Positions 2,689 to 22,030 of a stretch of 64,000 nt of DNA are shown here, piece by piece. The notes under the pieces were generated by a model. It was not told where the DNA came from and made no database searches. It saw only the letters and a program-made list of their open reading frames with translations. The translations under genes and the position numbers were made by a program. The DNA comes from Diplonema papillatum (Eukaryota > Euglenozoa > Diplonemea > Diplonemida > Diplonemidae): assembly GCA_030068145.1 (NCBI GenBank), contig JAPJBO010000092.1:124001-188000 (forward strand). The letters run 5' to 3'. The stretch's first letter is position 1. Each line of letters opens with the position of its first letter.

Positions 2689-2699
2689 AAATCAATTCA
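2689..2699. repeat. Target-site duplication, 3' side of full-length LINE
   Basis: AAATCAATTCA stands directly next to the LINE 3' end and is repeated exactly at 9782-9792 next to its 5' end. Confidence 0.8.
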
Positions 2700-3098
2700 C
2701 AACGTTGCGTCGTCTTGTTGCGTTAGTGGGGAGTCATTTGCATGCAAATGAGTACCACACTATGCCAGCTTTTCGCTACGTGACTCCAGAAGGGTCACTT
2801 TTTCCGCGCTTTTTTCGGCGCGGCGCAACTCTAGTCGGTTGCAACTGTTCTTGGAAGTTACTGACGATTTCATAATCCGAAAAGGAATCGGAATCTTCGC
2901 TTTCTCGTTTGCGCCGATAGGCACGCCGCGATGCGGAGGACGCGAGTAGCCGGGAAGAGCCGGCGGGAGGGCGCGATCGTTGTGTGACCCGTGGAGGGTC
3001 GGAACCAGAATCAGAAAAAGGGCCCGAGTCAGGGCCGCCATCGAAGAGGGCCGGGCGGGGCCCGTGCCGTCGTCGCCGAGATCGGCGCGTCGTCGTCG
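2700..3098 (-). other. LINE-1w 3' UTR with three conserved hairpins
   Basis: The segment is nearly identical in the copies beginning at 11444, 12883 and 21862. It holds a palindrome around CATTTGCATGCAAATG (2735-2750), a stem GTGAC/GTCAC (2780-2798) and a stem CGCGC/GCGCG separated by a short T-rich loop. Its spread with otherwise truncated copies suggests that it is the part recognised by the reverse transcriptase. That role is inferred from how LINE 3' ends work in general. Confidence 0.7.
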
Positions 3099-6000
3099 TC
3101 ATGGCGGGGGGGCGCGCTTCGGGGGCGACTTCGTCGTCCGCCTCCTCCGGCCACGGCTGGCAGGTGTCCCAGGTGGGGACGGCGCGCGCCGCTTCCGGCC
3201 TGTGAGGCCGTCGCTCTCGCCAAGGCTGCGACCGCCACCGCCGCCGCCGCGTTCCCCGCCGCGAACGCTGCCGCGACCGCCGCCGCGTGCACGGCCGCGA
3301 CCAGTGCCGCGGCCGCCGCCCCCGTCTCCGCCACTGTCGTCTTCGCCGCCTCGGCCGCCATGACCACCGCCACCCCCGTCGCCACTGCTGCTGTCGCGGC
3401 CAGCACCACCCCTGTGATGCCCCCGTCCGCAGCACGCGTCGGCGTTCGGGCAGGTCCCGCATCGCGTCAGCCGATGCGCCCGGCAGCACTGAATGCGCAG
3501 GCCGTCGTCCGGGTGGTGGTGCACCTGGCAGCACTGGTCAACTACAAGGCTGTAGTTTCTTCGCATGCCAGTGCACACCGCGCACTTCTGCTTTGCGCAG
3601 GCATCGCAGACCGACTGCGTGCGGAGCAGAGGGTCCGCCTGCGCAGCCGGTACAAGCACGGGAAGGCGCGGGCGTTGCGGCAGAGGGGTGGGCACGTCCC
3701 AGCGCAGCGAACGCTGTGCCCGCCGCGCCGCGTCGTACTGCGGGAACACGTCCCCGCCCCAGTTCTTCCCGTCCCCGGCAGCTGCCCGCGGAAAGCTCGT
3801 CTCCAGCACCCCGTGCGTCTCCTCGCCCCCGGCGAAGCGTGGGCGAGGTGTCAATCCCCCCCACAGCATCGGCGCCCCCAGGGTCCTCATCGAGCCCACC
3901 CGGACCTTCCGCTCGGCAGGCAACGGCGACGGCAGCTGCAGGTCTCGGCACAGGCGGCACAATGTCGACAGCATCGTCCAGAGGGTCTTCCCCCTCTGGT
4001 TGGCGGCGAGCCTTCGTATTCCCGGGGGGGCAGGGACGTCGACCCCGGTGTGGACCTCGAAGTCCACTGCCAGCTCGACGCACGACACCTCGCCTGCGTT
4101 CGTCCACCTCAGTGCCGACAGCCAGCCCTTGAGCGCCCGCATCGCACGGCCGCCGTACGGCCATCTCGGCGGCTCATCCGGAAGGCGGTCGAAGTTGAAC
4201 AGGTGTTGCACCGCCGGCAGCGGCGCAGCTGCGTGCCAGGGGTGCATCGGTTGCACTGCGGAGAGGCGGCGTCGCTCCGCCTCCACGCGTGCAGTGTACA
4301 CCGCCGCCATGAGGCGGTGAAGGGCCGCGACCTCCACCCGCATTCCTTCGACAATAACCCCATGCACACGCGTGCAAGACGGCCACCTCGCCCGGTCCGC
4401 CCGCAGGAGTTCGGCGAAGCAAGGACGGCCGCGAATCTCGTCGTAGGCGGGGCACTCCCACCACAGGTGATCCGCTGTGTCCTGGACGCCCAGGTCGCAG
4501 TCCCTGCAGCCGCGAGCGTCAGCCGTCGCCAGGCGCAGTTCGTTCGTACGCCTGCAGTCCACCCCTGCCTGCACACCGTCGTAAGACGGTCGTTGCCTCG
4601 CAAGCTGCGTCCAGGTAGTCTGCCGTAGCCGCGCCCGGATGGCGTGGTGCCTCTCGCCCCTCTCCATGTCGAGAAGCCGGCGGCCCTCGAGCGCCGCGGT
4701 CGCAAAATCGCGACCTTCGAAACCGATGCCCGCGACCGTGAAACCGTCAGAGATGGCGATCCCGACAGGTCCTAGGCGCGCCTCCGGCAACAACACACCG
4801 TGCCGGCTGTAAAGCCGGGCGATGTTCAGCATGCGGGCATACACGCGGGGGAGCCTCTCGCACGCGTCGAAAAACGAGCATAGAATCCTGTACGGCCGAG
4901 CAATCATCGGATCAAGACGGTGACCCTTCGCCAGGATCGACAGCACCGCCGTCACGCTTCTCGACGGCTGCCTGCTCCCAAAAGCGCCCCTTACGACCCG
5001 CGTCCGGAGCCCCTTCAGGCGCGTCTGCGTGTACGTCTCGTAGGAGCACCCCGCAAGGACACTGCTGAGAACGTTCGAACTCGCCACCTCGCAGCGGACA
5101 TCGAACGGAAGCTTCGAGGTACTCAGCCTGTCAATCAGACCGTCATGTGCGCTCAGACGCGCATCGTTGGCCCGACTCGCTCGGACGCTCTCCACACTCG
5201 TTCGCACCCCGAGGATCTTCGCAGACGTCGCCGTCACTATGGCCTCGCCGCCCACCTTCACCGCGCTGGCGTACGGTCGCCGCCTGCGCTGCTGCGTCGA
5301 GCCCGCACGGATACCCATTGCCACGGTTTTCGACATGTTGAGGCGCATCCCGGTCAGGGCACAGAACCGCGCGACGATGTCGACCGCCTGCTGCAGCTCG
5401 GCTTCCGCCGGCGCAAGGAGCGTGGCGTCATCCGCCAACGACTCCGAAGACACCTCCGGCACCCGCACCGAAACCGCGCGGAGCACTACCGACAATAGCG
5501 CGTTGATCAGTATGACCGACAGCGGGCAGCCCTGCAGAATGCCATTTGTCACCTCGAACTCGGAGCCCACGCCGAGCGGCAGCTTGAACCGTCGCTTCAT
5601 GCCGCGGTACATGGCGCGCAAGGGGCGCAAGATGCGCGCGTCGAGACCCATCTCCTCTGCAAGACTGAGAACGATACCCTGCGGAACCCGGTCAAAACAT
5701 TTCGCGAAGTCCAGCGCCACCATGTAAAGCGATTTCGTCTCGTCCAGCAGCGTCTCCTCGATCAACGTCGTCAGCTCCATGAGGACATCGTCCGTTCTGT
5801 GCCCCGAGCGGAAGCCATGCTGTGTCGGTAGCACCCAGCCCTCTTGCCACTCCATGACGTCTTGCAAACGCCTGCAGGCCCACAACCGATAGACGCAGCT
5901 CGTCACGGTGATTGGCCGCAAGTTCGTTGGCGAGGTGTCGTCGGTCTTTGGGATGAGCGACACCAACGACGTCAGCATACCCTTCGGCCACTCCCCTCGC

Positions 6001-6689
6001 TCCTCTACCAGATTGAAGAGCGTCGCGAACCCGTCCAGCAGCTCGTCGGGCAGGGCCTTCAGCTCGTCCAAGCGCCAGCCGTCCACCCCACACGCCGTAG
6101 TCTTCTTCTTCCGCTTGTTGAGCACATCCCGTAGCTCCCTCCCGGTCACATCCCGCAGGTCCATCTGGCGGCGGGGAATAAAACCCTCGAAGGCCCTGCG
6201 GAACACCTCGTACTCGGGCTCTGGGCGTCCTTCCCCGTACATGCGCAGGATCGGGTCCCACGCCTCCTGCAGCACCTCGTCCATCTCCTCGACGTTGGCG
6301 GTGAGCCGCCCGTCCGCTGTTCGCACCGCATCGGCCGCCTGCCCCGGACCCCCCCGTAGCATCGTCACAAGAGCCCGGCGATCCGTCCCAAACATCGTCA
6401 GCTGCCTCTCGTGTTGCTGCCTCTTCCGTACCCTCGCCGCAGCCGCGTTGTATCTCGCACTGCGCAGTCGTACGTCGTGCAAGTAAACGCGGGCGACCTC
6501 TGCGCTCGGCGGGTCGGAGGGGGGCGGCCCGCCGCCCCGCCGCCACGGATCACGGCGAGACAGCGCAGCCAGCACAAGCGGAGTTCTTGGGGCACCTGGA
6601 AAGGTCCGGACGCTTCCAGGCGAGCTCGCTGGTAGACGTAGTGCTCCAGGCGTCGGATCGTATTCCCGTGCCTCAGCTCCGTCTCGCAC
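3099..6689 (-). CDS. LINE-1w ORF2: reverse transcriptase with cysteine cluster and RGG tail
   Basis: The open frame is about 1,196 codons; it begins at a non-ATG codon because the upstream endonuclease part lies in another frame. RT motifs are in order: ACGVDGW, LIPKTDD with NLRPITV, motif A LDFAKCFDRV, motif B NGILQGCPLS and motif C LADD (the catalytic aspartates are present, with Leu for the usual Tyr or Phe). A histidine/cysteine patch (CRDCDLGVQDTADHLWWECP) matches the knuckle that follows RT in many LINEs. The last 250 residues are unusual. They hold a cluster of paired cysteines (CDACAKQKCAVC, later CCQVHH, CCRAHR, CGTCPNADACC), then a long glycine/arginine run, then a basic Ser-Pro segment. 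The product would copy LINE RNA at the nicked target. The catalytic core looks whole. Confidence 0.92.
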   Translation of the reverse strand: MRDGAEAREYDPTPGALRLPASSPGSVRTFPGAPRTPLVLAALSRRDPWRRGGGPPPSDPPSAEVARVYLHDVRLRSARYNAAAARVRKRQQHERQLTMFGTDRRALVTMLRGGPGQAADAVRTADGRLTANVEEMDEVLQEAWDPILRMYGEGRPEPEYEVFRRAFEGFIPRRQMDLRDVTGRELRDVLNKRKKKTTACGVDGWRLDELKALPDELLDGFATLFNLVEERGEWPKGMLTSLVSLIPKTDDTSPTNLRPITVTSCVYRLWACRRLQDVMEWQEGWVLPTQHGFRSGHRTDDVLMELTTLIEETLLDETKSLYMVALDFAKCFDRVPQGIVLSLAEEMGLDARILRPLRAMYRGMKRRFKLPLGVGSEFEVTNGILQGCPLSVILINALLSVVLRAVSVRVPEVSSESLADDATLLAPAEAELQQAVDIVARFCALTGMRLNMSKTVAMGIRAGSTQQRRRRPYASAVKVGGEAIVTATSAKILGVRTSVESVRASRANDARLSAHDGLIDRLSTSKLPFDVRCEVASSNVLSSVLAGCSYETYTQTRLKGLRTRVVRGAFGSRQPSRSVTAVLSILAKGHRLDPMIARPYRILCSFFDACERLPRVYARMLNIARLYSRHGVLLPEARLGPVGIAISDGFTVAGIGFEGRDFATAALEGRRLLDMERGERHHAIRARLRQTTWTQLARQRPSYDGVQAGVDCRRTNELRLATADARGCRDCDLGVQDTADHLWWECPAYDEIRGRPCFAELLRADRARWPSCTRVHGVIVEGMRVEVAALHRLMAAVYTARVEAERRRLSAVQPMHPWHAAAPLPAVQHLFNFDRLPDEPPRWPYGGRAMRALKGWLSALRWTNAGEVSCVELAVDFEVHTGVDVPAPPGIRRLAANQRGKTLWTMLSTLCRLCRDLQLPSPLPAERKVRVGSMRTLGAPMLWGGLTPRPRFAGGEETHGVLETSFPRAAAGDGKNWGGDVFPQYDAARRAQRSLRWDVPTPLPQRPRLPVLVPAAQADPLLRTQSVCDACAKQKCAVCTGMRRNYSLVVDQCCQVHHHPDDGLRIQCCRAHRLTRCGTCPNADACCGRGHHRGGAGRDSSSGDGGGGGHGGRGGEDDSGGDGGGGRGTGRGRARGGGRGSVRGGERGGGGGGRSLGESDGLTGRKRRAPSPPGTPASRGRRRRTTKSPPKRAPPP

Positions 6690-7382
6690 ATCACGCCCCG
6701 GTCCGGCGTACTCCTCGCCGCAACGCGAGTCATCTTCAGCTCCGAGTTACCACGGCCGGTGTGCGCACGTCTTTCACAGGCAGGCATCCCGCTGCGGTCC
6801 AGCAGGTACTGCTCGCACATTGCGGAGGACGCTCAAGGTCCGTGTTGAAGTCGCCCATCACGACCGCCGGGGCCTGCCCCACTATGGCCTGCGCCTCGAA
6901 GAAGACCGTCTGCAGGAGCCGCTCCCGGGACGCCGCTGCCGTGTTCCCCGATGGGGCGTAGACTGCAAAGAAGTGCATGAACATCCGTCCGACCCCCGTC
7001 GCGATCATCGTGTGGATGACCCGGTTGCGCACTTCCTGCAGCGATTCGTTGGGCAGCAGGTGGGCCACCCCCGGCTGCCTGGCAAGCACAACGACTCCGC
7101 CCCCCTCTGCCCGGAATGCGGGTTTCCGTGCGGACAGTGCTTGCTGCGCTTCGGCGGTTGCGGCGGCCCCCACAGCGTCTTCCACCTCGACCCGTCGACG
7201 GCGCACGGTCTCGCGAGATAATCCGTCGCCTGCGCCTGCTGCAACTCGCTCATCGACGTTTCCACCACCGCAATCGCGTCTGCGGGGGCCATCGCACGCA
7301 CCTCGTCAATGTGCAGGGCCAGCGAGCCAACATTGACTGCAGCAAGAGTGGGGGACCAGGGTTCGGGTGGACGTCCCCGCAC
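6398..7382 (-). pseudogene. LINE-1w apurinic-type endonuclease region, frame-shifted
   Basis: Three overlapping minus frames together cover the endonuclease. The N-terminal part reads VNVGSLALHIDEV and then VVETSM, as in APE-type nucleases. The middle part has FFAVYAPSG and the strong motif VVMGDFNTDL, whose Asp and Asn belong to the active site. The last part links it to the RT. The frame changes near 7190 and again near 6820-6690, so this copy cannot make one continuous ORF2 protein without recoding. It would nick target DNA to prime reverse transcription. Confidence 0.8.
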
Positions 7383-7693
7383 CTCAAGAGCCGTTCCCCC
7401 GCGGCGTACGCATACTTACGGGCGTCGTGCTTCGACGGTAGCCACGCACATTCAACAAGCCCACGCCGCGAGGCAACCCGGGAACCCACGCCCCGCGCGC
7501 GATGCAGCACACGCGCGGCAACGTACCGGGCTGCGCCGGCCGGCCGTCGGCGACGTCCGCGGCGGAAAGCCGCCGCGGCGGTCGAGGCGAGCGTTCGGCG
7601 CCCGGGGCCAGGGTTGGGATGCACATCCCCACATCGCATCAAGCGGACTCCCGCAGCATCGCCGTCCGCGCGGGCGTCGTGGCTTGACGGCAG
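7350..7693 (-). other. Tandem 2A-like peptide units between ORF1 and endonuclease
   Basis: The motif GDVHPNPGP is encoded twice, at 7604-7630 and 7352-7378, exactly 252 bp apart and in the same frame. Each is preceded by a related stretch (LPSSHDAR then AAGVRLMRC, and LPSKHDAR then AAGERLLRC), so a unit of about 30 residues is duplicated around a basic spacer. The motif is close to the 2A consensus D-V/I-E-x-N-P-G-P, known from viruses and from several LINEs to make the ribosome skip a peptide bond; His stands where Glu is usual. The frame is the same as that of the end of ORF1, with one TGA between them. The endonuclease begins right after the second motif, but in another frame in this copy. 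Confidence 0.75.
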
Positions 7694-9638
7694 TCAGGCG
7701 CGCGAGCACGTGACACACACGCTGGCGCCGCACTCTTCGCACCTCCTCTGCATGCGGCCCTTTTGGATTGTCTTCTGACAATCGCCGCATTCAAACTCCA
7801 CTGGAGCCCGCACTCCATCGGTCAGCTCGTGCCGGTGATCGGCCTTCTCACCCTCGACCGGCTCCTTCAGACGCTGGCGCGGCGGGGACAGCATCTCGAC
7901 CACACCGGCCACAGCTCGCCGGATTAGCGACTGTCCCGCTTCCGCCGGCTGCGCCACCTCCTCGTGCTTCCGCTTGTTGGACGGAGCCGGCTCCGGATCC
8001 GTGTGCACTTCGGCGGCGGGCAGCTTCATGCGCCGCCTCTGGCCGGGCGTCGTCGGGAGGGAGGAGGCGAGGCGCTTGGAACGCGGCCGCGGCATCTCGC
8101 CCTTGTCGTAGTCGTTGACGACAATGAAGGGCGACCCTTCCCTTTCGATCACCCGAAACGGCGGGCCGCCATCCCCCGTCACCACGCACGTCCGCATGCC
8201 GCTTCTCACGAAGGATGTCGTGACCGTCGCAGCCCAGCCAGCGAGCCTGAGCAGCATCTCGACGTCGGCCTCGTGTTCTCGCGCCCTGGCACCGGACACG
8301 AGGTACCGCAGTTTCGTTTCGAGCGGGGGCGCCGCGTGCTCACCAGCAGCCGCCCGCACGCGCGCCAGCATCCCCGAGCCGCGCGCCCGCAGCAGAAGAC
8401 GTCTTCCACCAAGAACGACACCGCCCCCGGCCTCGCCGCACTTCTTCAACAACGCCAACGCGGTCTCCCGCGTCACGTCCGCATTTAATGCGACGACCGG
8501 CGTGGCGTCGCGCGCTTCCCTCCCGACTGGTCGCCAGAAGCAGCCATCCCTACCCGACCCCTGCAGGATGGCGTCCACGTGTCCCGCAGGTACGCGAACC
8601 AGGAGTTCACGGCGGCCCTGCTGCGACGTCACGCCCCACATGGAGGCCGCTTCGAGGCGCGTCTGCGCCGAAGTCGCCTTCACCGCCCGGCGGCAGAGAC
8701 GCGTCATCGCCGTGTGCGGGTCCTTCTACGCATGCCCACGTTTCGGCCGCCGTGTGCTTGCGTGCCACGGTGAGGACGAGTACCGCCGTGGCCGCGCCGG
8801 GCTTCTGTCCGCCTTCTGTCGCCGCCTGCCGGACCTTCCCTACCTTCCCGGCCTGCCGAACGTCCCCGTGCGTCCAAAGGTGCATCCGCTGCACCACGCC
8901 CGTCTCCATGAGGACGTGGCGCGCCTCGCTCTTCTCGAACGGCTGTCGGCACAACACCGCGTACCGAACCTCCTCTGTCGCCAGCGCCGCAGCATCGACC
9001 GCCACGCCCATCGCCGTCTCGGCCTCATCGACGCTGGGTGCGACCCAGAGCCCCTCCTTCTTCGCCTCGAATGAGCACGACTCGAGGATCGGCACGTTCC
9101 AGTCGAAACTGTGCACGCCGCACACGGTCGCCTTACGTCTGACGACGTCTACCCACTGCTGATGTTGCCGCTGCTGCGGTTGCTCTTGTTGTTGCGGTCG
9201 GTTCCGCCGTTGCTGTTGCGGTTGCTGTTGTTGCTGTGGCTGTTGTTGCTGCTGTTGCGGTTGCTGGTGTTGTTGCTGCTGCTGTTGTTGCTGTTGCGGT
9301 TGCCTCTGTTGCTGTCGCTGCTGTTGTTGTGGTTGCTGTTGTGCTTGTTGCCGCGGTTGCCGTTGTTGTTGTGGCTGACGCTGCTGTTGCTGGTGCGGTT
9401 GCTGTTGCTGTTGTTGCTGTTGCGGTTGCTGTTGCTGTTGTTGCTGTTGCGGTGCTCCTTCACGATCCTCGCCTTGGTACTTCGGCCGTCCTTGCGACAG
9501 CGCCGGTTCCCACTGGCTCGTCTCGTTCCGCTGCTCCGCCTCCAGGAGGCTGATCGCCGCCTCCAGGAGTGTCAGTGCCACCCCTCGCTCCTTCTGACTC
9601 CGAGCCGCCGCTGCTGCCCGGCTAGCCCGCTGCTGCAT
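7694..9638 (-). pseudogene. LINE-1w ORF1: polyglutamine protein with C-terminal zinc ribbon
   Basis: The frame starts at ATG 9638 with a helical segment (ALTLLEAAISLLEAEQ). It runs through about 100 residues made almost only of Gln with Pro, His and Arg (9150-9460), and then a globular part (QWVDVVRRKATVCGV onward). At about 8700-8760 the frame shifts and continues as a second globular part of about 300 residues, ending with a basic nuclear-type stretch and a zinc ribbon (FECGDCQ, RRCEECGASVCVTC). It is probably the RNA-binding ORF1 protein of the LINE by position; no RRM or zinc knuckle of the usual ORF1 kind is visible. The single shift makes this copy defective. Confidence 0.75.
9150..9460 (-). 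repeat. CAG/CAA-type microsatellite coding polyglutamine
   Basis: On the plus strand the tract is built of CTG and TTG triplets with CGG interruptions. On the minus strand it codes Gln runs in ORF1. The plus-strand leucine frame over it is a shadow. Confidence 0.9.
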
Positions 9639-9781
9639 CTCCGAGGCGGTCGAGCATCGACGATGGCGCCGCCGAAAGCGCCGCCATCGCCGTGATGTGT
9701 TCCCCCCGCTCCCAGAAAAATCGTCAATAAAGTACAGAAACTGTAGCTTTTAAATCGTTGGTGGAAAACTCCAGGAAAACA

Positions 9782-9792
9782 AAATCAATTCA
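9782..9792. repeat. Target-site duplication, 5' side of full-length LINE
   Basis: AAATCAATTCA is identical to 2689-2699 and fixes the LINE 5' end at 9781. Confidence 0.8.
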
Positions 9793-11442
9793 GGGTAGGC
9801 GGGTTTTTTTTTTTTTTTTTTGGACCATGTCCGTCGGCCCACAGAAATTTACGCGCGCGCGCGCAAAAAAAAAAACTTTCAGAAAAAAAAAAACTTTTGC
9901 CACAAGACTTTCTGCTACTGGATGTCACACCATATGTGCCGGCTATACTACTGGCCGGTCCGCTGTTGGCACTTTTGTGCCCGTTCTTGGTGGAATTCCT
10001 GGACAATGAGCTCAAAGATGAGTGTGATGATGAACTTGATGTGTCCGAGGGGTTGCGGTGGCAGTCTAGAGTTCAATAGTCCTGAACGTCGCGCGGGGTG
10101 CGTTTCGACAAAACTTTCCATAGTCGAATGCGAAGGAGAAAAAACACTCGGGTTTGAACTCGAGATCGCGGTTCGCTGGGTACGCCGCGAACGATAAAGC
10201 AGTGACCCAGAGGACTGTCGATTGTGCGGGTGTCCGTCAATCTTGTATCTCCTGACATGCCCCATTGCGATGTCACGGTCCTACCGAGCCACCGTACTGA
10301 CGGCTGGTCGGTGGCATTTCCATCGGCGAATAAGCGCCAGCTACCCGCAGATAGTATGGTGAACTTCAACTTCTGCTTTCCTCCACCTTGTGCAAGGATG
10401 GTTGCTCTCGCGGCTTCTGCGGCGGTCTGCTGTTGAAACCCCAAAAGTCGGACGTCGACCCCGTCGTTTCGGGTGTGGCTTTGTCGATGTTACTCGAGTT
10501 CACAAAGATGAACTGTTTGGTGTAAACGGAGTTTGTCGGTACTCTGCCGACCCTCCTGTCAGCAAGCTGTAGCCAGTGGCCACCTTCTCATGCGTAGCAA
10601 ACGGCCGGACTCACAAGATGTACCTCACCCACATCGAAAGAGACCAGTGATGTCTCGACATCCGCACGGAGGGCAGGTGCTTCTAGCACACGGCAATTGG
10701 TTAGACGCCGTGTGCAACGAAGGCAGTTATGCTCAGGGGTGTGCGGTCTAGACTGTCAGGTGACGAGTGCCATTTTCTTCGCAAATATACACCGCACCAC
10801 AAGGCATTGCCGCCGGTCGAGTGCACTATGTCGCAAGCACCGTGAACGCATCGCTTGCCCGCGTCCTTTTAATGCCTCCTCAGTCGAGTCTCAGATACGT
10901 CCCTACTAGTAACTGCTTCAGGCGTCGGAAGGCATAGACGCGTGCACTGCCCCGGACTGGTTCTGTGTGATAATCGCACCACAGCGGCAAACCCTCCCGA
11001 CATGCCTTGCCGGTAAAACCGCGCACACTTTCGAGGCTGAGGCTGTGCTTGTATCCCGCATGCTTCGACTGCGTCCAGCAGGAGCTGGCTAAAGCTACGC
11101 GATTCTTGCTGTTTAGATTGACACCAACGTCAAAGTAGCACGATATTGCTTGCCCAGCGCAACCCAGCACCGGGCATAGTCGGCTTCAAAGTCCATACAC
11201 ATTGAGGTAAACAACGTCTACGCGATTCGCATCGCCGTGAAGTATCGGTGTGATGAACAGGGTTTCGACTTTTCCCGAGCCGGACACGCTCGTGACTACG
11301 CCTGCAGTCGCTCTCACGACCGGTTCCAATGCACAGATCCCAAAAGTTTTTTTTTTGGCAAAAGTTTTTTTTTTCTGGGGGTTTCCAAAAATTTACGCGC
11401 GCGCGGACATGGGCCAAAAAAAAAAAAAAAAACCGCCTACCC
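9793..11442. mobile_element. Inverted-repeat element with arms of about 110 bp
   Basis: The left arm (9793-about 9905) runs GGGTAGGCGGG, poly(T), a CATGTCCG block, AAATTTACGCGCGCGC, poly(A) and AAACTTTTGCC. The right arm (about 11335-11442) is the same in reverse complement, ending CCGCCTACCC. TCA flanks both sides (9790-9792 and 11443-11445), a possible 3-bp target duplication. The interior of about 1.4 kb has one unrecognised minus frame (10073-10444, containing KLKFTILSAG and WLGRTVTSQWGM) and no transposase signature. It is probably a non-autonomous DNA element, possibly carrying captured host DNA. Confidence 0.7.
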
Positions 11443-11443
11443 T

Positions 11444-12877
11444 CACAACTTTTCACAACTTTTCGTCGTCTTGTTGCGCTAGTGGGGAGTCATTTGCAAG
11501 CAAATGAGTACCACACTATGCCAGCTTTTCGCTACGTGACTCCAGAAGGGTCACTTTTTCCGCGCTTTCGGCGCGGCGCAACTCTAGTCGGTTGCAACTG
11601 TTCTTGGAAACTACTGACGATTTCATAATCCGAAAAGGAATCGGAATCTTCGCTTTCTCGTTTGCGCCGGTAGGCACGCCGCGATGCGGAGGACGCGAGT
11701 TGCCGGGAAGAGCCGGCGGGAGGGCGCGATCGTTGTGTGACCCGTGGAGGGTCGGAACCAGAATCAGTAAAAGGGCCCGAGTCAGGGCCTGCCATCGAAG
11801 AGGGCCGGGCGGGGCCGGGTGGGCGCGGTGTGTTCGGGCCGGCGAGGCCAGTGCCGTCGTCGCCGAGATCGGCGCGTCGTCGTCGTCGTGCGCGCAGCGC
11901 GGCTGCGGGAGAGGCCGTGGGGGTGCATGGCGCGGGTCGCTTCCTGCCTGCTGGCGGGGGGGCGCGCTTCGGGGGCGACTTCGTCGTCCGCCTCCTCCGG
12001 CCACGGCTGGTAGGTGTTCCAGGTGGGGACGGCGCGCGCCGCTTCCGGCCTGTGAGGCCGTCGCTCTCGCCTAGGCTGCGACCGCCACCGCCGCCGCCGC
12101 CGCGATCCCCGCCGCGACCGCTGCCGCGACCGCCGCCGCGTGCGCGGCCGCGACCAGTGCCGCGGCCGCCGCCACCGTCTCCGTCACTGTCGTCTCCGCC
12201 GCCTCGGCCGCCGCGGCCGCGGCCACGGCCGCGGCCGCCATGACCACCGCCACCCCCGTTGCCACTGCTGCCGTCGCGGCCAGCACCACCCCTGTGATGC
12301 CCCCGTCCGCAGCACGCGTCGGCGTTCGGGCAGGTCCCACATCGCGTCAGCCGATGCGCCCGGCAGCACTGAATGCGCAGACCGTCGTCAGGGCGGTGGT
12401 GCACCTGGCAGCACTGGTCAACTACAAGGCTGTAGTTTCTTCGCATGCCAGTGCACACCGCGCACTTCTGCTTCGCGCAGGCATCGCAGACCGACTGCGT
12501 GCGGAGCAGAGGGTCCGCCTGCGCAGCCGGTACAAGCACGGGAAGGCGCGGGCGTTGCGGCAGAGGGGTGAGCACGTCCCAGCGCAGCGAACGCTGTGCC
12601 CGCCGCGCCGCGTCGTACTGCGGGAACACGTCCCCGCCCCAGTTCTTCCCGTCCCCGGCAGCTGCCCGCGGAAAGCTCGTCCCCAGCACCCCGTGCGTCT
12701 CCTCGCCCCCGGCGAAGCGTGGGCGAGGTGTCAATCCCCCCCACAGCATCGGCGCCCCCAGGGTCCTCATCGAGCCCACCCGGACCTTCCGCTCGGCAGG
12801 CAACGGCGACGGCAGCACAATGTCGACAGCATCGTCCAGAGGGTCTTCCCCCTCTGGTTGGCGGCGAGCCTTCGTAT
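11444..12877 (-). mobile_element. LINE-1w copy, 5'-truncated
   Basis: The 3' UTR and the last 450 codons of ORF2 (cysteine cluster, RGG run, basic tail) are present and open from 12887 to 11532. The 3' end carries two copies of CACAACTTTT. The homology to the full-length LINE stops abruptly at the sequence GCGAGCCTTCGTAT. Compared with the full copy it has an extra segment in the RGG/proline region. Confidence 0.9.
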
Positions 12878-13147
12878 CACAGCACAACTTTTCACAACTT
12901 TTCGTCGTCTTGTTGCGTTAGTGGGGAGTCATTTGCAAGCAAATGAGTACCACACTATGCCAGCTTCTCGCTACGTGACTCCAGAAGGGTCACTTTTTCC
13001 GCGCTTTCGGCGCGGCGCAACTCTAGTCGGTTGCAACTGTTCTTGGAAATTACTGACGATTTCCGAAAAGGAATCGGAATCTTCGCTTTCTCGTTTGCGC
13101 CGATAGGCACGCTGCGATGCGGAGGCCGGGAAGAGCCGGCGGGAGGG

Positions 13148-14193: not shown

Positions 14194-14566
14194 TTGTGTG
14201 ACCCGTGGAGGGTCGGAACCAGAATCAGTAAAAGGGCCCGAGTCAGGGCCTGCCGTCGAAGAGGGCCGGGCGGGGCCGGGTGGGCGCGGTGTGTTCGCCG
14301 GCGAGGCCAGTGCCGTCGTCGCCGAGATCGGCGCGTCGTCGTCGTCGTGCGCGCAGCGCGGCTGCGGGAGAGGCCGTGGGGGTGCATGGCGCGGGTCGCT
14401 TCCTGCCTGCTGGCGGGGGGGCGCGCTTCGGGGACTTCGTCGTCCGCCTCCTCCGGCCACGGCTGGTAGGTGTTCCAGGTGGGAACAGCGCGCGCCGCTT
14501 CCGGCCTGTGAGGCCGTCACTCTCGCCTAGGCTGCGACCGCCACCGCCGCCGCCGCGATCCCCGCC

Positions 14567-14668
14567 GCGACCGCTGCCGCGACCGCTGCCGCGACCGCTG
14601 CCGCGACCGCTGCCGCGACCGCTGCCGCGACCGCTGCCGCGACCGCTGCCGCGACCGCTGCCGCGACC
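14567..14668 (-). repeat. 12-bp tandem expansion in LINE RGG region
   Basis: CGACCGCTGCCG is repeated about eight times and would code Gly-Ser-Gly-Arg repeats on the minus strand. The full-length LINE has only one or two such units here. Confidence 0.85.
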
Positions 14669-15433
14669 GCCGCCGCTTGCGCGGCCGCGGCCAGTGCCGC
14701 GGCCGCCGCCACCGTCTCCGCCACTGTCGTCTCCTCCGCCCCGGCCGCCGCGGCCACGGCCACGGCCGCGGCAGCGGCCGCCACGACCACCGCCACCCCC
14801 GTCGCCACTGCTGCTGTCGCGGCCAGCACCACCCCTGTGATGCCCCCGTCCGCAGCACGCGTCAGCGTTCGGGCAGGTCCCGCATCCGGCAGCACTGAAT
14901 GCGCAGGCCGTCGTCCGGTTGGTGGTGCACCTGGCACTACAAGGCTGTAGTTTCTCCGCATGCCCGAGCACAATGCGCACTTCTGCTTCGCGCACGCGTG
15001 ACAGACGGACTGTGAGCGGAGCAGGGGGTCTGCCTGCGACTCCGGGACGAGCACCGGGAGGCGTGGTCGTTGCGGCATTGGTGTGGGCTCGGCCCAGCGC
15101 GCCGAACGCTGCGCTCGCCTCGTCGCGTCATAGAGCGGGAACACGTCCCCGCCCCAGTTCTTCCCGTCCCCGAGCGCCGCACGCGGGAAGTTCTTCTCCA
15201 AGACTTCGAACGTCTCCTCCCCCCCAGCGAAATGTGGCCGCGGTGTCAGACCACCCCACAGCATCGGCGCCCCCAGCGTCCTCATCGAGCCCACCCGGTC
15301 CTTCCGCTCGGCCGGAAGCGGCGACGGCAGCTGCAGTTCCCGACACAGGCGGCACAGCGTCGCTAGCATCGTCCAAAGGGTTTTTCCCCTTCGGTTGGCG
15401 GCGAGGTTCGGGGGGCCCAGGATGTCGTGCCCA

Positions 15434-21022: not shown

Positions 21023-21864
21023 CTAGCCATGTCCGGGACTGTTTGTGACCGACACCAAGTACTTTCTTTCGTGGAGTGTAGTCTTGGGCCCCCCACGTTC
21101 TACAAGTTGAGCAGGGGTTGCCTTGTAGCCCGTACCGGTCTGTTGTCCGCGTTTATATGTATTTTCTCGCAGTGTGGTGCTTGGATTTCGCGGCACTTGC
21201 GGTGCTTCATGTGGTGCGGGTTGCTTCCGTCCTAAGATAAGGTTTTTTTTGGGTAGATTGCAGGGTAAAACTGTTCGTTGCTCGCCACAGTTAAGGCACT
21301 CTGGGCACACTGGGTACCCGTGGTTAGTGAGGTTATTCGTCTGATGGAGTCGTCATGGTGTCGTAGACTTTTGAAAAGTGGTTTCCCCACGGTTCGTCCG
21401 TCGCTGTGGCAGTAGGGACATCTCTCTCGTTTCTGGGTGGTGCTTCGCAGCGTTGGTTCTGCTTGTGACTTAGTTCTGGTTGGTTTCTTCTTGCAGTAAC
21501 GTAGGTGCGTCCGTAATCCTTGTTTTCCCTTCAGTTTGAGGCCGGTTGTTGTTGTGCGTGTGTGGCAGTGGGGACATCGTAAGTCGTCTTCACTGCTGGT
21601 CTCTGTTTCCGCGGTGGTACTGGAGGTCTGTGACGTGCCTGGTGTTGTGGGTGTTTGTGTGGGGGGTGTGTTGTCGTGTCGTTGTGTGGGTGTGTCGGTA
21701 GATGTCTCGTCTCCGCGCATGGCTCTAAGTATACTTTGCGTCGAGTCCGGCTCTTGTGTTGTGGTTCTAGACGTGGCAGGCTTTGGGGGTTCATAGTGGT
21801 TGTGGTCTATGGGTGGCGGGACATCCGTCTGTGGGTAGTCTTTGAGCTGGTAGACGCCGAGCAC
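21023..21864 (-). pseudogene. Zinc-finger reading-frame fragment, probable LINE ORF N-terminus
   Basis: A minus frame (21864-21232) starts with a Ser/Thr/Pro-rich linker and then has two fingers: CPHCHTRTTTTGLKLK with HLRYC, and CPYCHSDGRTVGKPL with a following His pair. A neighbouring frame (21310-21023) carries CPECLNCG and a basic stretch. Clusters of C2H2/C2HC fingers like this are found at the N-terminus of some non-LTR ORFs. The upstream side is cut by the LINE-1w tail at 21862, so the fragment has no start. A host zinc-finger gene fragment is the alternative. Confidence 0.45.
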
Positions 21865-22030
21865 AACTTTTCACAACTTTTCGTCGTCTTGTTGCGTTAG
21901 TGGGGAGTCATTTGCATGCAAATGAGTACCACACTATGCCAGCTTTTCGCTACGTGACTCCAGAAGGGTCACTTTTTCCGCGCTTTCGGCGCGGCGCAAC
22001 TCTAGTCGGCTGCAACTGTTGTTGGCAGTT
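21862..22030 (-). mobile_element. LINE-1w 3' tail, about 165 bp
   Basis: Two CACAACTTTT units and the three hairpins of the 3' UTR are conserved. Homology to the full LINE ends near 22030. Confidence 0.85.

Follow-up and report, generated by a model that had tools for sequence, protein, structure and literature searches.

Tandem 2A-like motifs beyond an in-frame UGA in Diplonema papillatum LINEs suggest stop-codon readthrough followed by StopGo skipping

How the second open reading frame of a bicistronic LINE is produced is an old question, and the printed answers that were found are reinitiation at an AUG. In the locus described here, in a window of 64,000 nucleotides (the whole stretch of DNA that was analysed) of a Diplonema papillatum contig, ORF1 ends at a TGA beyond which the same frame carries two 2A-like motifs. 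D. papillatum is a marine single-celled diplonemid (Euglenozoa) with a genome of about 280 Mb, whose authors, in the part of their text at hand, deferred the rigorous identification of transposons (PMC10161547).

The element concerned is a defective LINE copy of a family named A hereafter, and its parts are the following (positions are those of the window):

2694..9713, minus strand: defective copy of the family A LINE (ORF1, junction and ORF2 remnants), delimited by blastn to the sister loci L036 and L029
7694..8707, minus strand: 3' part of ORF1 with its Cys-rich end, CGDCQKTIQKGRMQRRCEECGASVCVTCSRA, taken from the ORF listing; sister copies have the same C-terminus
7694..7696, minus strand: in-frame TGA in the context GCC TGA CTG, the proposed readthrough stop, seen in the sequence and in the genome-wide junction pattern
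7604..7693, minus strand: unit 1, LPSSHDARADGDAAGVRLMRCGDVHPNPGP, the 30 codons immediately 3' of the TGA, used in the comparison of A1 with B1
7604..7630, minus strand: 2A-like motif 1, GDVHPNPGP, a pattern match kept in 28/28 aligned copies
7379..7603, minus strand: inter-motif stretch of 75 codons, from the pattern matches and the alignment of copies
7442..7444, minus strand: TGG at the place that corresponds to the TGA before unit 1 (alignment of the units)
7352..7441, minus strand: unit 2, LPSKHDARKYAYAAGERLLRCGDVHPNPGP, a duplicate of unit 1 with 23/30 residues identical
7352..7378, minus strand: 2A-like motif 2, GDVHPNPGP, a pattern match kept in 28/28 aligned copies
7350..7351, minus strand: site of a 10-nt gap of the window copy that breaks the frame, the 10 nt being present in 27/27 other aligned copies
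7005..7349, minus strand: first part of the APE-type endonuclease (TLAAVNVGSLALHIDEV...), which in the window copy does not share the frame of the motifs, from the ORF listing and PF03372 in the sister ORF2 P0001

A sequence-only reading of this locus had described two in-frame GDVHPNPGP motifs 252 bp apart, duplicated as a unit at the ORF1/ORF2 border of a LINE and sharing the frame of the end of ORF1 across a single TGA, and this description was borne out. Indeed, (i) GDVHPNPGP has two matches on the minus strand of the window and none in each of 100 shuffles, (ii) the two motifs are 252 nt apart in one frame and each closes a 30-codon unit, the two units having 23 of 30 residues in common (counted in the sister copy L036, to which the window residues are identical), (iii) the TGA that ends ORF1 adjoins unit 1 in the same frame, and unit 2 is preceded by TGG instead of TGA at the equivalent position, and (iv) the family A sister ORF2 P0001 encodes an APE-type endonuclease (PF03372, E 3.8e-13) and a reverse transcriptase (PF00078, E 2.3e-23), which identifies the element as an APE-type LINE. 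The continuation of this frame into ORF2 was found in 27 sister copies and not in the window copy, which is frameshifted after motif 2 by the loss of the 10 nt at about 7350/7351. A blastn comparison with the sister loci L036 and L029 revealed two larger gaps in the window copy, of about 378 nt at 6827/6830 and of about 212 nt at 4511/4514; the window element is dead and belongs to a young family.

Other repeated sequences lie near this element. Pieces of related LINE 3' ends are present at 11443-13147, 14194-15432 and 21862-22030, and on the 5' side of the LINE (9792-11443) imperfect inverted repeats with A/T runs, of which the outermost pair is 28 nt long with 96% identity, flank a segment of about 1.6 kb that is perhaps a non-autonomous DNA element.

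The motif DVHPNPGP is the rare p14=H form of the 2A core, with His instead of the canonical Glu. The core octapeptide has been given as (D/G/C/N)(V/I)ExNPGP, with rare p14=H forms reported as functional, and DVHPNPGP matches it if p14=H is allowed; according to the accessible part of the same source, natural p14=H StopGo variants showed activities above 95% in reticulocyte lysate (PMC12846837). Whether His in place of Glu permits skipping had been the point left open by the sequence-only reading, and this assay answers it in principle, with the same substitution as here, but for other peptides, which were viral and tested in their own upstream context. GDVHPNPGP itself has been termed 2A-like in two yadokariviruses (PMC10817634), and their relative YkV1 has GDVEKNPG^P (PMC9600902). 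Four related proteins were compared from EukProt: in two of them GDVHPNPGP stands once ahead of the endonuclease, and the other two have no NPGP, P0011 beginning just ahead of the endonuclease with its upstream part unseen, and P0012 having an OTU cysteine-protease domain (PF02338) first, followed by the endonuclease and the reverse transcriptase.

Genome-wide searches were carried out in the 271-Mb D. papillatum assembly that contains the window contig (C92). A DNA search for sister copies gave 91 candidates, of which 40 were scored and 28 of these 40 aligned, and both motifs and the TGA are kept in all 28. The family A junction, searched as a 45-base pattern with at most three mismatches, is present at 76 places of the genome, and 75 of them have TGA; the remaining one, among the 12 copies left unaligned, has AGA (C669:39282-39326) and is thus a natural family A copy without the junction stop. 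Among the listed places matching D(V/I/M)(H/D)PNPGP (up to contig C202), 21 family A pairs with a spacing of 252 nt and five single motifs were found; four of these five places still have the junction pattern, one motif having been lost or altered there. The family is dispersed and multicopy with 5'-truncated members, as seen from at least 40 matches, the 76 junction places and the 3' pieces in the window. Among 12 long loci, both frames are long in two (675 and 1882 codons from stop to stop in L029, 713 and 1881 in L036) and ORF2 reaches 1881-1887 codons in four. The proteins nearest to P0001 are annotated D. papillatum proteins (99% over all of the searched part, 100% over 80% of it), and its C-terminal part has a Cys/His-rich stretch followed by a long Gly-Arg-rich tail of ORF2. 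Since the copies within the family are young, the conservation among them says little.

Further evidence came from a second tandem family, named B. The pattern D(V/I/M)(H/D)PNPGP has 488 matches in the genome and one in the reversed control. Among the listed places up to contig C202, family B is represented by six pairs with a spacing of 336 nt, one pair with a spacing of 170 nt and one single motif. In four copies (L041-L044), ORF1, TGACTG, unit 1, unit 2 and the endonuclease all lie in one frame; in the copy with motifs 170 nt apart (L045) the TGA is kept and the frame between the motifs is lost, and in L046 motif 2 alone is present. The family B junction pattern was found at 28 places of the genome, all with TGA. 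ORF1 is 49% identical between A and B (498 aligned positions) and the endonuclease region 53% identical (360 positions). Over the 30 codons after the TGA, A1 and B1 agree in 24 of 30 residues (pN 0.15, pS 0.77; pN 0.04 in the final 12 codons), and the final 12 codons of the unit give pN 0.04-0.08 and pS 0.59-1.00 in four A/B comparisons. The 30 codons past the stop are therefore, to judge from these substitutions, under purifying selection between A and B, and in the 2A core, where the peptide is nearly invariant and the codons differ, it is the peptide rather than its codons on which this selection acts. Because the stop, the frame and both motifs have been kept despite such divergence of ORF1 and of the endonuclease, the pair of motifs is older than the split of the two families. 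The A and B spacers outside the units have no similarity detectable by eye. The stretch between the motifs had been called a basic spacer; its net charge per residue is 0.193 in A and 0.180 in B (shuffle means 0.121 and 0.113); among 2000 shuffles, 8.3% and 5.2%, respectively, reach these values, which are hardly beyond composition, and a special basicity is not claimed.

The order ORF1, in-frame TGA, 2A, endonuclease was found in 8 of the 14 groups read (A, B and six further families, D to I), and the stop is always TGA. In families D to I the 2A is single and the nearest in-frame stop upstream of it is a TGA ending an ORF1-like frame; as this stop was sought in the frame of the motif itself, the absence of stops up to motif 1 is a consequence of the method, and an ORF1 lying in a different frame could be missed. 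Inspection of all three upstream frames showed frame 0 to hold the longest ORF in A, B, D, E, F and G; in the short stretches available for the other two families, the lengths are about equal in H and another frame is longer in I. Stops within the junction stretch number 0 in the shared frame versus 14 and 17 in the others, a difference that, like its shuffle control, is partly due to construction and is not taken as a test; a simple product of the chances over families, which would presuppose their independence, is likewise left aside. The gap from the TGA to the motif is 22 codons in A and B, 99 in D, 18 in E, 26 in F, 34 in G, 100 in H and 101 in I. The junction is kept in 5/6 of the copies read for D, 2/2 for E, 7/7 for F, 6/6 for G, 3/4 for H and 3/4 for I, the copies of D to H being 24 of the 40 listed places plus L050; the exceptions (L073, L050, L088) differ upstream. 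In frame 3' of the motif, PF03372 was detected in B, D, E, F and G (E 8.4e-10 to 8.1e-14, in stretches that end before the reverse transcriptase), and the endonuclease start was recognised by eye only in H and I. Family I has the canonical DIEENPGP. These families are not independent of one another: A is related to B, and D to H share ORF1 tails, those of D to G being alike (KRxATPPE or RxPTPPE, then a Lys-rich end) and that of H less so (Lys-rich end). The tails of A, B and I are Cys-rich.

The other 6 of the 14 groups have a different layout or are undecided. In the group of L047-L049, L057, L082 and L085, the first three loci have no upstream stop and a long frame with two 2A-like motifs, and in L057, L082 and L085 a TGA lies 219, 16 and 20 codons upstream, respectively, in unassignable sequence, with a longer frame out of phase in L057. 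L051, of the group L051/L052, has no upstream stop; in L056, which is perhaps a ninth case of the layout, a TGA lies 340 codons upstream, after a frame of 152 codons; L083 has a TAG 37 codons upstream and is apparently cut; and in L086 a TGA lies 165 codons upstream, near the edge. In L079-L081, the 2A is 3' of an oxygenase domain in one frame.

Several of these groups deserve mention in their own right. The pattern D(V/I/M)ExNPGP gave 360 further matches in the genome and none in the control; those read are L079-L085, three more, and the first motif of L057. L079-L081 (C1:861 kb, C1:323 kb and C1:55 kb) form a LINE group with canonical DVEQNPGP or DIEQNPGP, and in L079, the only one of the three that was scanned, a 2OG-Fe(II) oxygenase (PF13532, E 6.5e-13) lies upstream of the 2A in the same frame. 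L057 and L085 have DVERNPGP then DIHPNPGP in one frame, 111 nt apart in L085, and L047-L049 are of the same group; the first of the two in-frame motifs of L047-L049 is DVQRHPGP or DVPRHPGP. These loci possibly represent an independent duplication of 2A.

The best explanation of this layout, with a probability of roughly three in four, would be readthrough of the UGA followed by StopGo/2A skipping at the ORF1/ORF2 border. Most ribosomes would stop at the UGA after ORF1 and yield free ORF1 protein, and a minority would pass it. About 22 codons further in A and B, GDVHPNPG^P would free the ORF1 protein, extended by a short tail; at a second StopGo site, 84 or 112 codons further, a short spacer peptide would be released, and the ORF2 protein, comprising the endonuclease and the reverse transcriptase, would begin with Pro. 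In the six other families, a single StopGo would suffice. Readthrough could thereby set the ratio of ORF1 to ORF2, as in gag-pol, and StopGo could leave the ORF2 protein free instead of fused.

The positions of the AUG codons and the constraint on the codons past the stop support this reading. The first in-frame AUG after the TGA is at codon 179 in family B (4/4 copies with intact spacing), within the endonuclease domain (156-371), at codon 64 in family F (domain 44-206), and at codon 278 in family G, past the domain (55-275). Readthrough is favoured because no AUG precedes the endonuclease in these three families and because the post-stop codons evolve as coding sequence. In 8 of the 14 groups read, homologues continue in frame for a long way past a single stop, which was chosen as the nearest one in the frame of the motif. 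From the stop on, the bases are UGACUG in A and B, UGACGU in D, UGAAAC in E, UGAGGC in F, UGAGUC in G, UGAAAG in H and UGACUA in I; the context UGA-CUN is thus present in A, B and I only and UGAC in A, B, D and I, and in E to H the UGA is followed by A or G. UGA-C and UGA-CUA are leaky contexts for readthrough. No RNA structure with z below -2 was detected 3' of the TGA in 27 folds, pseudoknots being outside the scope of the method; the lowest z (-1.87) was found in one subfamily only, its sister subfamily having -0.04. Stimulatory 3' RNA structure is not always required for readthrough. The coupling of ORF1 to ORF2 by readthrough and skipping, offered by the sequence-only reading, thus gives the best fit to the AUG positions and to the coding constraint, as two processes that we infer.

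Translation could instead terminate and reinitiate near the UGA, at the AUG that lies in frame between the TGA and the motif in A, D, H and I, or at the CUG that follows the UGA in A and B (TGACTG), and the 2A would then trim the N-terminus. Family E could also be served in this way, its AUG at codon 37 being just ahead of the endonuclease domain (from codon 39), and the route has precedents in SART1, for which it is described, and in L1, for which it is proposed (PMC5972666). However, reinitiation can do without a shared frame and without constraint on the codons beyond the stop, so that the frame common to eight families at six or more different gap lengths (subject to the bias of selecting stops in the motif frame) and the constrained codons fit a crossing of the stop better. 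In addition, B, F and G have no AUG before the endonuclease, and D to H have no CTG after the stop with which to restart. The AUG of family A would moreover place the conserved GDVHPNPGP at residue 4. Skipping by 2A needs a certain length of peptide upstream, and residue 4 is too close to the N-terminus. Reinitiation at an AUG was therefore rejected as the general route; it may operate in A, D, H and I, which have an AUG before the motif, and in E, and as an account of the layout it is unlikely.

The TGA might be removed as part of a short intron or bypassed through an internal spliced-leader acceptor, with ORF2 translated from another mRNA. Diplonema has introns and spliced-leader trans-splicing (PMC10161547), and a public gene model, P0002, omits 12 codons (36 nt) at the TGA (CVTCSRA*LPSS), a stretch that starts with GT and ends with AG. 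A LINE copies its RNA, however, so that copies without these 36 nt would be expected if the junction were commonly spliced, and all 28 aligned copies retain them; for this reason the omission is taken for an annotation artefact, and it resembles an automatic model dodging a stop. An ORF2 mRNA made by trans-splicing would also have no AUG ahead of the endonuclease in B, F and G. Removal of the TGA by splicing was thus discarded and, as an explanation, is quite improbable.

The motifs could also be functionless, the pair being a chance local duplication, a reading that the break of the window copy directly after motif 2 and the five single motifs against 21 pairs of family A would suit, and that the sequence-only reading would have accepted if sister copies lacked the second motif or its frame. 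For the family as a whole this is contradicted by both motifs and the TGA in 28/28 aligned copies, by TGA at 75/76 junction places in A and 28/28 in B, by the persistence of the pair with mostly synonymous change across families about 50% identical, and by the 488 genome matches against one in the reversed control, all of which make it very improbable. That the TGA is a sense codon (Trp) or encodes selenocysteine, ORF1 and ORF2 forming one polyprotein cut by 2A alone, has the TGG at the aligned place before unit 2 in its favour and is hardly credible, since all 26 Trp codons in each of four long ORF2s are TGG, since no excess of ORF1 protein would result, and since Rfam gave no match at E 0.1 in the two loci searched (L036 and L034). 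Rfam includes SECIS models of selenocysteine elements.

Under the favoured reading, UGA readthrough followed by StopGo, a wider proposal can be made, tentatively and with the odds somewhat against it: diplonemid LINEs may in general express their proteins in a gag-pol-like way, the amount of ORF2 protein being set by UGA readthrough and its release being due to StopGo. A and B would then give three products, the middle one a free Arg-rich peptide of 84 or 112 residues between the StopGo sites, kept either because it has its own function or as a safeguard against an unskipped ORF1-ORF2 fusion. The sequence record points to readthrough with StopGo as another route to ORF2 in eight families of one genome, and the junction is directly testable. 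The genome has 848 matches to 2A-like motifs (488 + 360), many of them copies of one family; since StopGo is described as mostly a feature of viruses, seldom met in cells (PMC12846837), this genome would offer a natural collection of StopGo variants, including the His form and the tandem pairs.

In summary, the parts of this arrangement are known, namely 2A in LINEs, UGA between the frames of retroelements, and serial 2A in picornaviruses. In the open-licence literature (titles and beginnings of abstracts), no LINE was found to be described with a tandem 2A or with a 2A reached by reading through the ORF1 stop, and we found no printed account of this combination in LINEs or of a tandem 2A that has persisted while the proteins diverged by about 50%. 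For L1Tc/ingi of trypanosomes, to which D. papillatum is related, Heras is said to have described in 2006 a single 2A, inside an ORF or at its start, and Odon reportedly did so in 2013 for APE-type elements of animals. Those elements and the present ones share a 2A-like peptide with APE-type LINE proteins; the 2A described here differs in following an in-frame stop, the TGA of ORF1, and in being duplicated in two families. SART1 and L1 (PMC5972666) are bicistronic LINEs as well, but with restart at an AUG, and in the bicistronic LINE Zorro3 the first AUG of ORF2 is reported to matter (PMC1965478), whereas three families here have no AUG before the endonuclease. Tca2 likewise has a UGA between its structural and polymerase frames, but it is an LTR element with a potential 3' pseudoknot, for which the available part of the source leaves the route past the UGA in question (PMC2194720), whereas the present elements are LINEs with StopGo motifs and no signal of structure. 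Finally, picornaviruses with several 2A(NPGP) have serial StopGo sites about 50-150 residues apart, as in families A and B, but within a viral polyprotein for which the part of the source at hand mentions no stop codon ahead of the first 2A (PMC11512398), whereas in the D. papillatum LINEs a TGA precedes it.
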